From Paracoccaceae bacterium (lineage in GTDB: Bacteria > Pseudomonadota > Alphaproteobacteria > Rhodobacterales > Rhodobacteraceae), in the NCBI GenBank assembly GCA_020832445.1, contig JAFIEO010000074.1, positions 1 to 35,578 on the forward strand: a stretch of 35,578 nt of DNA. Direction: 5' to 3'. The translations under genes and the position numbers were made by a program. Below, piece by piece: positions 1 to 35,578 of this stretch. Position 1 is the first letter of the stretch, and each line of letters begins with the position of its first letter. The notes beneath the pieces are model-generated. The model ran no database searches. It worked only from the letters and a program-made list of their open reading frames with translations, and had not been told where the DNA came from.

Positions 1-141
1 GATAACCTGATGGCAGGCCAAGCCTTTGAAGTCAGGATTGTGCAGCTTGCATAAACTGCATTCTTATAATGTCGGATCGGCAGACCCCGGCCCACCGATG
101 GCGCGGGCTTGGTTCCAATGCGAAGGGCAGCTTCAGGCCAA
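1..141 (+). repeat. Interspersed structured repeat, copy A (left part missing)
   Basis: This is the right-hand part of a repeat that also occurs at 14240-14460, 23344-23570 and 35461-35578. Shared blocks in the same order are TGATGGCAGGCCAAGCC, a GCAGC(C/T)TGCATAAA segment, CCCGGCCCACCGATGGCGCG and a terminal arm GGCAGCTTCAGGCC at 126-139. The missing left arm would be expected to be complementary to this terminal arm, as it is in the complete copies. The copy lies about 150 bp beyond the stop codon of the BI-1 gene, past its terminator. Homology between copies is seen directly; any function is unknown. Confidence 0.85.
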
Positions 142-14239: not shown

Positions 14240-14460
14240 GGTCTGAAGGGGACGCCCAAAGGCGCGGATTCAAAGGCGCAGCTGGCCCACGGCATAGGTC
14301 TGGCGGTCCCGCGACCTGCCGGTTTGGCTGATGGCAGGCCAAGCCTTTGAACGCAGGAATATGCAGCCTGCGTAAAGTGAACTTCACGAATGTCTGACGG
14401 GCTAATTCCGGCCCACCGATGGCGCGGGCTTGGTCCAGGGATCAACGTCTCCTTCAGGCC
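14240..14460 (+). repeat. Interspersed structured repeat, copy B (complete, divergent left half)
   Basis: A 221-base copy. The outer arms are GGTCTGAAGGGGACG (14240-14254) and CGTCTCCTTCAGGCC (14446-14460); all 15 positions pair if two G-T wobbles are allowed. An inner CCTGCC / GGCAGG pair flanks GGTTTGGCTGAT, and ATGCA-GCC-TGCGT forms a small apical hairpin with one wobble. The left half of the middle stem has drifted from the other copies (GCTGGCCCACGG... instead of CGCGCCATCGG...), while the right half keeps CCCACCGATGGCGCG. It starts 57 bases after the rppH stop. Confidence 0.85.
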
Positions 14461-14474
14461 GAATTCTTCCAGCC

Positions 14475-14580
14475 TAGAGCATATCACGTTCATTCGCATT
14501 CACGAAATATGCTCTAACTTATTGATTCCGCGTGTTCGAGAAGCTCAAAACCGGTGCCCACTTTTGAGCAACATGCTCTA
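14475..14580. repeat. Double palindromic element resembling alphaproteobacterial intergenic repeats
   Basis: Two hairpins lie side by side. The first pairs TAGAGCATAT (14475-14484) with ATATGCTCTA (14507-14516), without mismatch. The second pairs GCTCAAAA (14543-14550) with TTTTGAGC (14562-14569) around CCGGTGCCCAC, with an outer CGTGTT / AACATG pairing, and ends in CATGCTCTA, so the CTCTA end recurs. The AAAACCGGTGCCCACTTTT core and the GAGCAT/ATGCTC ends closely resemble palindromic repeats I know from Rhizobiales genomes. The element ends 21 bases from the flavin reductase stop. Confidence 0.75.
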
Positions 14581-14601
14581 GCATTTCCACGCGCCTTGGT
14601 A

Positions 14602-21652: not shown

Positions 21653-21696
21653 GGTGGAAATTAACTGGCGTCAGAAATGCTGTTCATGACACAAGT

Positions 21697-21700
21697 GGCC
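21697..21700. repeat. Left GGCC target-site duplication of the IS element
   Basis: GGCC at 21697-21700 abuts the left inverted repeat; the same four bases follow the right inverted repeat at 23344-23347. Four-base palindromic duplications fit IS1182-like elements. Because the element ends (GA.. and TA..) differ at the first base, the boundary could shift by a base or two. Confidence 0.65.
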
Positions 21701-23343
21701 GAGGCTGTGTGAAAACTCCAAGATGTGGTATGCTTCCTGCGATACAGGAGTGCATTCATGTCGGGTTTCATTGAAGGGGTAGACCGGGATCAAGTGACCC
21801 TGTTTCCGGATCGGCTTGAGGACTGGATCGATGAGAAGCATCTGGTTCGTGTGGTGGATCTGTTTGTTGATCAGCTTGATCTGGCTGGCCTTGGGTTCAC
21901 GCGCGCGGCGCATGCGCGGACCGGACGCCCCGGATACCATCCCGCCATTCTGCTGAAGCTGTTCATCTATGGCTACCTCAACCGGATCCCGTCCAGCCGC
22001 AGGCTGGAACGTGAAGCCGGGCGCAATGTCGAGGTGATGTGGCTGCTCGGGCGGCTGGTGCCGGATCACAAGACGATTGCCGATTTCAGGCGTGACAACG
22101 GTGGGGCCATTCGCAAGACTTGCGCGCAATTCGTGGAGCTGTGCCGCCGGATCGGCGCCTTGAAGGGCGACTGCGTGGCCATCGACGGGAGCAAATTCAA
22201 GGCGGTCAATAACCGCGACAAGAATTTCACCAAGGGCAAGATCGCCCGCCGCCTCGCGCATCTGGAGGCCGATGTCGAACGCTACATCACCGAGATGGTG
22301 CGCATAGACCGGCAAGAAACAGGCGAGGCGCGGGCCGAGAAGGTCGCCCATCTGGCGCATCGATACGGGCGGCTCAAGCAGGAAATCGAGAAGCTCAAGG
22401 CGATGGACAAGGCCCTAGCCGATGCGCCGGACGGCCAGATTTCCCTGACTGATCCCGATGCCCGCGCCATGGCCACGAGCGCGCGCAACAGCGGGTTGGT
22501 GGGCTACAATGCGCAATGCGCCGTGGACACCGAGACCCATATCATCGTCACGCATGACGTCACCAACAAGGGCTTCGACCGTGACCAACTCAGCCCGATG
22601 GCAATGGCGGCCAAGGATGCACTCGGGCGCGACACGCTGCATGCGCTGGCCGACAAGGGCTATTTCAGCGGTGTCGAGATTGCGGCCTGCGACAAGGCCG
22701 GCATCACTGTGACCATGCCGCGCCCCGAGACCTCGGGCAATCGCAAGAAGGGCATGTATGTGAAGGCTGACTTCAAATATGACCCCGACCGCGACGTCTA
22801 TATCTGCCCGACCGGCGACGCGCTAACCTACCGCTACACGCGCGAGGAAGACGGGCTTCTGGTCAAGCGCTACTGGACCAGTAAATGCGGGAGCTGCCCT
22901 GTCAAATCACGCTGCACCACGGGCAATGAACGCCGGGTCACCCGGTGGGAATACGAGCATCTGGTGGACGAGATGCGCGACCGCCTGCGCAGCGCCGATG
23001 ATCCGATGACCCTGCGCCGCTGCACGGTCGAGCATCCTTTCGGGACGATCAAAGCCTGGATGGGGACCACCCATTTCCTGATGCGCCACCTGAAGAATGT
23101 CCGCACCGAAATGGCGCTGAACGTGCTGGCCTACAATATCAAGCGCATGATTGCTTTGGTCGGGATCAAGGGGCTAATGGCGGCGATGCCCGCCTGAAAG
23201 AGAGGAAATCACTCCCCAAACCCGCTCAAACTGCGCTAATCGGCGCAACTGGTGGGTTGCATGAACGCAAGCAAGTCAAAAGCCCTGCTGTGAACCAATC
23301 ACGTTGCAAGCTGTTGGTGGCGCGATAGTTTCCACACAGCCTA
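21701..23343 (+). mobile_element. IS1182-family insertion sequence, apparently complete
   Basis: About 1.64 kb bounded by imperfect inverted repeats: GGCTGTGTGAAAACT at 21703-21717 and the complement of GGCTGTGTGGAAACT at 23327-23341 (one mismatch in 15). It holds one long transposase gene and about 130 bases of non-coding sequence at its right end. Flanking GGCC on both sides looks like the target duplication. Removing the element joins GGCC directly to the repeat at 23344, so it inserted at the edge of copy C. With intact repeats and reading frame it may still be active. Confidence 0.88.
21758..23197 (+). CDS. IS1182-family DDE transposase
   Basis: A 479-residue transposase. The N-terminal DUF772-like domain has LFPDRLEDWIDEKHLVRVVD and GRPGYHPAILLKLFIYGYL. 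The catalytic DDE triad is visible as the Asp in VAIDGSKFKA, the Asp in LADKGYFSG and the Glu in CTVEHPFGTIKAW. A CxxC-type segment (SKCGSCPVKSRC) lies between the second Asp and the Glu, as in IS1182 relatives, and a charged helical stretch (about 175-225) interrupts the early catalytic domain. The ATG at 21758 follows AGGAG by eight bases. The frame is intact from end to end, so the protein could be functional. Confidence 0.95.
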   Translation: MSGFIEGVDRDQVTLFPDRLEDWIDEKHLVRVVDLFVDQLDLAGLGFTRAAHARTGRPGYHPAILLKLFIYGYLNRIPSSRRLEREAGRNVEVMWLLGRLVPDHKTIADFRRDNGGAIRKTCAQFVELCRRIGALKGDCVAIDGSKFKAVNNRDKNFTKGKIARRLAHLEADVERYITEMVRIDRQETGEARAEKVAHLAHRYGRLKQEIEKLKAMDKALADAPDGQISLTDPDARAMATSARNSGLVGYNAQCAVDTETHIIVTHDVTNKGFDRDQLSPMAMAAKDALGRDTLHALADKGYFSGVEIAACDKAGITVTMPRPETSGNRKKGMYVKADFKYDPDRDVYICPTGDALTYRYTREEDGLLVKRYWTSKCGSCPVKSRCTTGNERRVTRWEYEHLVDEMRDRLRSADDPMTLRRCTVEHPFGTIKAWMGTTHFLMRHLKNVRTEMALNVLAYNIKRMIALVGIKGLMAAMPA

Positions 23344-23570
23344 GGCCTTTTGCTGCCGTTGGACTTTCCCAAGGCGCGGAATCAAGGCCGCAGGCCGCCG
23401 CGCCATCGGTGGGCCGTCCCGCATCCTGCCGATTTCGCTGATGGTGATTCAATCCTTTGAAGTCAGGAGTATGCCGCCTGCATAAAGTGAACTTCACTGG
23501 CGTCGGACCGGCAGGCCCCGGCCCACCGCTGGCGCGGGCTTTGTCCAAGTGTGAAGGGCAGCAAAAGGCC
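23344..23570 (+). repeat. Interspersed structured repeat, copy C (complete, best-defined)
   Basis: A 227-base copy with nested complementary blocks. Outer arms: GGCCTTTTGCTGCC (23344-23357) and GGCAGCAAAAGGCC (23557-23570), 14 of 14. Then TTGGAC and GTCCAA. Middle stem: CGCGCCATCGGTGGGCCG (23399-23416) with CGGCCCACCGCTGGCGCG (23519-23536), 17 of 18. Inner stem: CCTGCCG (23425-23431) with CGGCAGG (23509-23515). The apex has AGTGA-ACT-TCACT (23486-23498). The IS element touches its left end. The copy ends 28 bases from the stop of the ABC ATPase gene. Confidence 0.9.
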
Positions 23571-23597
23571 AAATCCGCCATCGCTTGCAGCTTGCTT

Positions 23598-35460: not shown

Positions 35461-35578
35461 TTGGCCTTTTGTAGACCTTGGGGTTGCCCCAAGGCGCTGA
35501 GCAAAGGCCGAAGGCCGCCGCGCCATCGGCCGGGCGTCCCGCGGCCTGCCGATTTTTGTGATGGCAGGGCAAGCCTTT
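35461..35578 (+). repeat. Interspersed structured repeat, copy D (right part missing)
   Basis: The left half of the repeat family, cut by the end of the window. It starts with TTGGCCTTTTGTAGACC, then a perfect hairpin CCTTGGGG-TTG-CCCCAAGG, then GGCC-GAA-GGCC, CGCGCCATCGGCCGGGCG and the inner pair CCTGCC / GGCAGG around GATTTTTGTGAT. The last 20 bases match the first 25 bases of copy A at the window start. Together A and D cover the whole element. Confidence 0.88.

Follow-up and report, generated by a model that had tools for sequence, protein, structure and literature searches.

The window analysed here, a stretch of 35,578 nucleotides that makes up one whole contig (C25) of the source genome (G000; 4.08 Mb in 99 contigs), carries four copies of a palindromic repeat whose sites are more stable than their occupants. 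At all 36 sites that could be compared with a sister species occupancy was kept, about two thirds of the occupants were different, and half of those that differed were flipped. We think it probable, with considerable room for doubt, that this is a new repeat family of the ERIC/YPAL/CIR-like palindromic kind, in which copies use their inverted arms to replace one another in place; the enzymology and cellular role of the family we infer.

It has long been asked how palindromic repeats of the REP and ERIC types spread and persist with no obvious transposase. In the present family, dozens of orthologous sites shared by two closely related species allow occupancy, identity and orientation to be scored each on its own, and gene conversion and transposition thereby become directly testable against one another.

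Anatomy of the repeat

An earlier note on this DNA had described four related copies of about 225 bp that fold as one long nested hairpin and encode no protein. All four places indeed match R1, a covariance model of 167 positions derived from 32 cores (16 from G000, 2 from the related genomes G020 and G017, and 14 from other members of the genus), and both ends of the window fall inside matching copies. The features are these:

1..141, forward strand: copy A, truncated by the contig start so that the right part alone remains (core 1-109; right arm ending near 140)
14240..14460, forward strand: copy B (core 14262-14430)
21701..23343, forward strand: IS1182-like insertion sequence inside the left arm of copy C (transposase ORF 21725-23197)
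23344..23571, forward strand: copy C, the copy under study (core 23374-23540, with arms reaching out to 23344 and 23571)
23374..23403, forward strand: hairpin H1, GCGCGGAATCAAGGCCGCAGGCCGCCGCGC, containing GAATC, a GANTC-type site
23398-23416 with 23519-23537, forward strand: stem P1, up to 18 pairs
23423-23433 with 23507-23517, forward strand: stem P2, enclosing a 73-nt interior with a conserved ATAAA
23398..23537, forward strand: P1 and P2 together, with covariation on 52 cores
35461..35578, forward strand: copy D, left part alone, cut by the contig end (core 35494-35578)

Copies A, B and D scored 76.7 bits (E 6.6e-16, model positions 58-167), 102 bits (E 1.5e-21) and 70.2 bits (E 1.9e-14, model positions 1-85), respectively. 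Copy C, at 172.2 bits (E 3e-37), is one of the 32 training sequences and therefore matches R1 by construction. The long hairpin is real: 237 nt around copy C fold at -116.9 kcal/mol (z -4.5), a value equalled by none of 200 shuffles, and the opposite strand of copy C and the copy at 14240 gave z values of -3.75 and -3.69. Among 83 cores, any one reading frame was free of stops in at most 47, and the ORFs of 111 and 101 aa that cross copies B and C had no Pfam match. Thus, a coding repeat was rejected.

Two details of the earlier description did not hold. In this species group the unit exceeds 225 bp, as judged from gap differences between G020 and G017: where G017 lacks the element, at five sites, the gap in G020 is longer by 203-395 bp. 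Position 23344, taken as the left edge of copy C, is where an insertion sequence ends that we take to be IS1182-like. It matches DUF772 and DDE_Tnp_1_6, and its ends, GAGGCTGTGTGAAA and TTTCCACACAGCCTA, differ from those of the repeat family. The insertion is bordered by GGCC on either side (21697-21700 and 23344-23347), has split off the original left end of copy C (TGGCC, 21696-21700), and is missing from the orthologous site of G020. Pieces related to it were seen on contigs C69 and C53 of G017.

From the outside inwards the element consists of arms, H1, P1, P2 and a variable interior with the conserved ATAAA. Its core measures 166-169 nt in G000 (83 cores) and 164-171 nt across many genomes (52 cores). 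The arms of most of the 30 copies aligned read TGGCC(TTTTGC or TGAAGC) on the left and (GCAAAA or GCTTCA)GGCCA on the right, several ends being mismatched or decayed, so that terminal inverted repeats of the sort expected of a miniature inverted-repeat transposable element (MITE) are present. Arms of this kind occur in this species group and are not perfect in all copies; beyond TGGCC/GGCCA, more variable complementary layers could be discerned by eye. The outer part of P1 shares bases with H1, and a full P1 and a full H1 are therefore mutually exclusive.

In other genomes 66 of 83 copies have a GANTC site at core position 6; in G000 only 20 of 83 do. Core positions 6-12 read GAATCAA in 60 of the 83 copies elsewhere and GAGCAAA in 47 of the 83 from G000, so that the site is mostly absent from the source genome. 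At three loci of two other genus genomes (L041, L043 and L056) the same H1 is followed by a different stem (AGCGCCCGACCGCCCC...), representing a separate subfamily.

Whether the stems are maintained as DNA or as RNA was judged from compensatory changes in the 52 cores, which were aligned with MAFFT and not fitted to the structure. Pairing is possible in 93.0% of cells, a percentage biased towards structure because the rows had been found with R1 or the H1 pattern, and 15 of 32 pairs show double changes, a count that takes in 4 pairs of H1. Double-change cells numbered 113, compared with 26.8 in shuffled alignments (0 of 500 as high) and 5-22 in slid versions. The 32-sequence alignment was weaker in the number of pairs with double changes (7 versus 5.2 shuffled, 29 of 500 as high) and in pair types, which did not exceed the shuffles; its other measures were strong (43 cells versus 16.3 shuffled, 0 of 500). 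RNAalifold, unaided, predicted just 21 pairs, 4 of them with double changes. G-U accounts for 10 of the 1525 cells that pair (0.7%), as against 22 of 286 (7.7%) in tRNA stems, for which the acceptor and T stems of 24 G020 tRNAs ending in CCA served as reference (Fisher p 1.6e-11). Since the covariation is almost wholly Watson-Crick, the stems look as though they are kept complementary as DNA, whether by selection for a DNA hairpin or by template-switch correction. Strong covariation combined with few G-U pairs favours a DNA palindrome over an RNA.

Rfam returned no match in the window and none at the elements of 8 further loci, which leaves no known RNA family at these places. A match to the sRNA SorX (66.7 bits, L098:2856-2930) lies about 1.2 kb from, and outside, the element of that locus.

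Copy number, range and gene context

The covariance-model search that the earlier note had proposed revealed a family that is large and family-wide, well beyond the four copies of the window. In G000, 150 of 4514 candidates were scored with R1, and 147 of them matched at E <= 0.001. A hand count sorted the matches into 114 near-complete copies (scoring at least 92 bits), 10 fragments and 23 that are the reverse strand of copies already counted; for the genome as a whole the numbers of copies and fragments are lower bounds, copy D of the window, for example, being missing from the list. Of the 37 genomes of the genus, 29 (G000 included) contained matches to R1; across the family, with about nine candidates scored per genome, at least 119 of 295 genomes did (118 of 294 genera). 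When 289 genomes were drawn from the whole class, G000 alone was positive; three other family members were negative, as were all 285 same-class genomes outside the family under stricter filters and with at most nine candidates scored per genome. The fear that the repeat might be restricted to a few copies and lack relatives was thus not borne out by the searches of the source genome, the genus and the family. The repeat makes up a large family, apparently unannotated, within a major family of bacteria.

A DNA pattern for the H1 hairpin matched at least 107 stretches in named genomes. Among the matches listed, the titles recognised by name belong to Rhodobacterales (Roseovarius, Sulfitobacter, Leisingera, Pseudaestuariivita, Roseinatronobacter, Natronohydrobacter, Salipiger, Shimia and others); Carideicomes, also listed, was confirmed as Rhodobacterales, and one metagenome-assembled genome is titled Alphaproteobacteria bacterium. 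In the class draw the exact H1 pattern occurred in 1 of 288 other genomes, a single time and without the palindromic inner part. Here "Rhodobacteraceae" is used in a wide, GTDB-like sense; NCBI places Roseinatronobacter in Paracoccaceae. We infer that the source genome belongs to the Roseinatronobacter group. A flank search among the family-level loci, which yielded no additional orthologous pair of use, identified G017 as Roseinatronobacter sp. HJB301, with 1400 of 1400 bases matching on either flank.

The family breaks draft assemblies. Contigs of G000 often begin or end inside copies or within about 60 bases of them, as at the starts of C3, C4, C5, C15, C28, C67, C68, C74, C91 and C95.

With genes called by a simple, purpose-made codon-usage caller, 61 of 83 G000 copies lie in convergent gaps, 18 in same-strand gaps and none in divergent gaps, while 3 remained unclassed and 1 overlapped an ORF call; convergent gaps therefore hold 61 of the 79 classifiable copies. 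The G020 background of 1277 neighbouring gene pairs, element sites included, consists of 201 convergent, 880 tandem and 196 divergent pairs, against which both the convergent excess (Fisher p 7.6e-31) and the divergent shortage (p 4.1e-6) are pronounced. The median distance from the core edge to the neighbouring genes is 74-75 bp. The best 83 of 124 matches in other genomes fell into 39 convergent, 26 tandem and 6 divergent gaps, 7 overlapping an ORF call and 5 lying at edges. The preference for convergent gaps is family-wide, but weaker outside G000.

Occupants of fixed sites in related genomes

The sister species G020 (6 contigs) has flanks about 95% identical to those of G000. We compared 83 of the at least 114 G000 copies with 1.639 Mb of the roughly 4.4-Mb G020 genome, a stretch that holds 61 matches; the comparison ran from G000, and not all 61 were traced back. 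Both flanks were collinear for 36 of the 83 copies, the remainder mostly lying outside the G020 stretch. All 36 sites are occupied in G020, 34 by full copies in both species and 2 by deletion remnants. L254 and L081, which had appeared to be empty in G020, proved on inspection by eye to hold internally deleted copies, one of them flipped.

The 34 sites separate into two groups of core identity that do not overlap (gap 88.1-92.9%). At 12 sites the same copy has been kept: the cores are 92.9-99.4% identical, none is flipped, and the orthologue is among the three best matches. The other 22 sites carry another member of the family, with cores 76.8-88.1% identical and the orthologue ranking 2nd to 80th of 83; random pairs of G000 cores average 82.9% (sd 3.8). 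Orientation was the same at 11 of the replaced sites and opposite at 11, so that flips number 0 of 12 at kept versus 11 of 22 at replaced sites (Fisher p 0.0026). None of the 11 flipped cores exceeds 88.1% identity, and inversion in place of the same copy was rejected as the cause of these flips.

The window itself provides examples. The G020 counterpart of copy A is a shortened copy in the opposite orientation. That of copy B has the same orientation and a core just 79% identical, hence its classification as replaced, and G017 has at this spot a copy in the opposite orientation. Copy C is faced in G020 by a different copy, flipped, with a core of 84% identity.

Breakpoints were located at 21 of the 22 replaced sites, copy C not being in the set. 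At 6 of the 21 (L002, L017, L022, L092, L238 and L245) the break lies exactly beside GGCC; at the others it falls further in or out, at most sites within the arms. L251 and L260 have retained their arms and differ in the interior alone, and for L251, where the orthologue ranks second and the arms are alike, rapid divergence of an orthologue could explain the difference as well as a replacement. L262, at 92.9%, was grouped as replaced in the breakpoint and donor analyses, which used a cut of 93; the final split follows the gap of 88.1-92.9%. The nearest paralogue within G000 has a median identity of 91.6%, reaching 96% or more for only 5 of 83 copies and for 0 of 56 in the G020 sample. Incomplete sampling may explain part of this scarcity of near-identical donors.

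Similar flips are seen in a pair of genomes with few copies, G014 and G018, where 5 of 8 G014 loci could be placed by both flanks, 3 facing the same way and 2 the opposite way. Identity is 81.5 and 77.4% for the two flipped cores and 80-86% for their flanks, and one flipped core is still the best match of its orthologue; with cores about as diverged as flanks, these two flips are also compatible with plain inversion. Six G020 sites could be placed in 0.42 Mb of G017: five are empty there and one is occupied by a copy in the opposite orientation (core 84%). The G017 stretch contains 11 matches, of which 1 could be placed in the G020 stretch. Thus, sites are gained or lost more slowly than their occupants are exchanged. 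No consistent target-site duplication was visible by eye in the 30 aligned copies, and the edges at the empty G017 sites are very diverged; the GGCC at both ends could be either the end of the element or a duplication.

Explanations for the exchange

The earlier note had offered three readings of the repeat, as a miniature transposable element, a BIME-like palindromic repeat or a structured RNA. The second is best supported, the copies being numerous, intergenic, located at gene 3' ends, palindromic as DNA and distributed family-wide. On our reading the element would be a non-coding interspersed DNA palindrome with a core of about 167 bp (H1 plus P1/P2) and, in this group, further inverted arms, and ectopic gene conversion would be the simplest account of the replacement. 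The palindrome would extrude or stall replication and then be cut; SbcCD-type enzymes, which cleave palindromes, are candidates for this step. The broken arms would pair with those of another copy and, as the arms are inverted repeats, the donor could be copied in either direction. The fixed sites, the random orientation of their occupants, the breaks within the arms and the Watson-Crick complementarity would all follow from repair that can draw on any copy, either way. The element may persist as a harmless sequence, or as a mildly useful 3'-end hairpin of both converging transcripts; a hairpin between converging genes is read both ways, and its flipping should presumably be neutral. Differential loss from small arrays could mimic replacement.

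A MITE- or REPIN-like element could instead be moved in trans by a transposase or a hairpin-recognising recombinase, inserting at or beside resident copies (at GGCC or TGGCCA), after which the resident would be lost or small arrays would lose copies differentially. We regard this as doubtful, although the inverted ends, the DNA-hairpin covariation, the sites empty in G017 and the boundaries beside GGCC at 6 of 21 replaced sites all agree with it. Two or three copies stand side by side, in the same or opposite orientation, at L118, L145, L150 and L156 of other genomes, and insertion beside a resident was given more weight on their account. Against it, no target duplication is clear by eye and no mobilising transposase was identified, so the transposable-element reading survives only in part. 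RAYT (Y1_Tnp, PF01797) had no match in G000 or in the copy-rich genomes G007 and G010, and RAYT-driven spread was rejected for G000; the domain is present in 4 of the 25 genomes searched, a set that does not include G017 and G020, and one carrier, G001, has a single element.

It is rather unlikely, in our estimation, that the sites are docking places at which dedicated machinery of the host or the element recognises the folded palindrome and swaps the occupant either way. Repeats would in that case spread in a manner unlike transposition and unlike the RAYT-driven copying of REPINs.

A cis-acting structured RNA at gene 3' ends, stabilising mRNA or terminating transcription from both sides, with each copy under selection, would be in keeping with the nearly constant core length, the convergent-gene positions and the stable folds of both strands. 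Compensatory changes that are nearly all Watson-Crick, with almost no G-U pairs, and the lack of an Rfam family weaken this proposal, as do the G017 sites devoid of the element and a separate terminator-like hairpin seen by eye beside the element at 2 of 5 sites inspected. We therefore judge it improbable.

The small number of near-identical paralogous donors would be explained if copies were replaced by homologous import from other strains, not from within the genome. However, mean flank identity is alike at replaced (95.3%) and kept (95.6%) sites, and import with homologous flanks alone would not flip the element, which makes this source quite unlikely. Misassembly, with repeats filled by the wrong copy in a 99-contig draft that breaks at these very repeats, is scarcely credible, given that G000 copies average 82.9% identity and are distinguishable, that both flanks are collinear, that G020 is in 6 contigs, and that flips are found also against G017 and between G014 and G018.

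REP, BIME and REPIN sequences are palindromic, lie near gene 3' ends, show DNA-hairpin complementarity and are hit by insertion sequences. The present family resembles them in each of these respects; its element is much longer, however, and G000 has no RAYT. ERIC (also IRU or RU-1), a 127-bp repeat of enterobacteria, is described in the parts of two sources consulted as intergenic, a single long stem-loop, present in many copies and non-autonomous (PMC2229807, PMC2267715), with TA ends and a target duplication according to a review table (PMC2229807 or PMC2267715). Our repeat shares the first four properties and differs in host family and length, a comparison made by description, not sequence; in those parts in-place replacement with random orientation is not mentioned for ERIC (PMC2229807, PMC2267715).

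The 168-bp YPAL (RU-2) of Yersinia is described as having internal inverted repeats and a contiguous ORF; it is not A+T-rich, targets sites at or next to dyad symmetry, and duplicates 3-26 bp of its target (PMC2229807). The present family is alike in its similar length, internal inverted repeats, base composition and dyad-symmetry targets but, again by description and not sequence, is without a clear duplication or a consistently open frame. CIR, of Caulobacter and Brucella, is portrayed there as an intergenic repeat of about 110 bp with a conserved GANTC at the hairpin and two arms joined by a linker, with no end-to-end stem (PMC2229807). Both are alphaproteobacterial intergenic repeats with GANTC at a hairpin (core position 6 here). 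On CIR's description rather than its sequence, ours is set apart by its greater length and nested end-to-end stems, and R1 had no match in those 285 class genomes outside the family, at most nine candidates having been scored in each.

The properties common to ERIC-, YPAL- and CIR-like repeats (high copy number, non-coding, intergenic and foldable) are all found in the present family. The possibility raised by the earlier note that the repeat would match an already described family found no support in Rfam or, within a partial coverage, in the literature: titles and abstract openings contained no description of it, which at this coverage is weak evidence of novelty. We class it as a new family among the palindromic intergenic repeats, set apart by an in-place exchange that may itself be new.

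A second palindromic repeat of about 100 bp occupies window positions 14474-14581 (AGAGCATATC...AACCGGT...ACATGCTCT). It has CTAG on either side (14474-14477 and 14578-14581), is missing from G020 at that site, and resembles the RIME-type repeats of rhizobia. Similar pieces adjoin elements in L234, L260 and G020.
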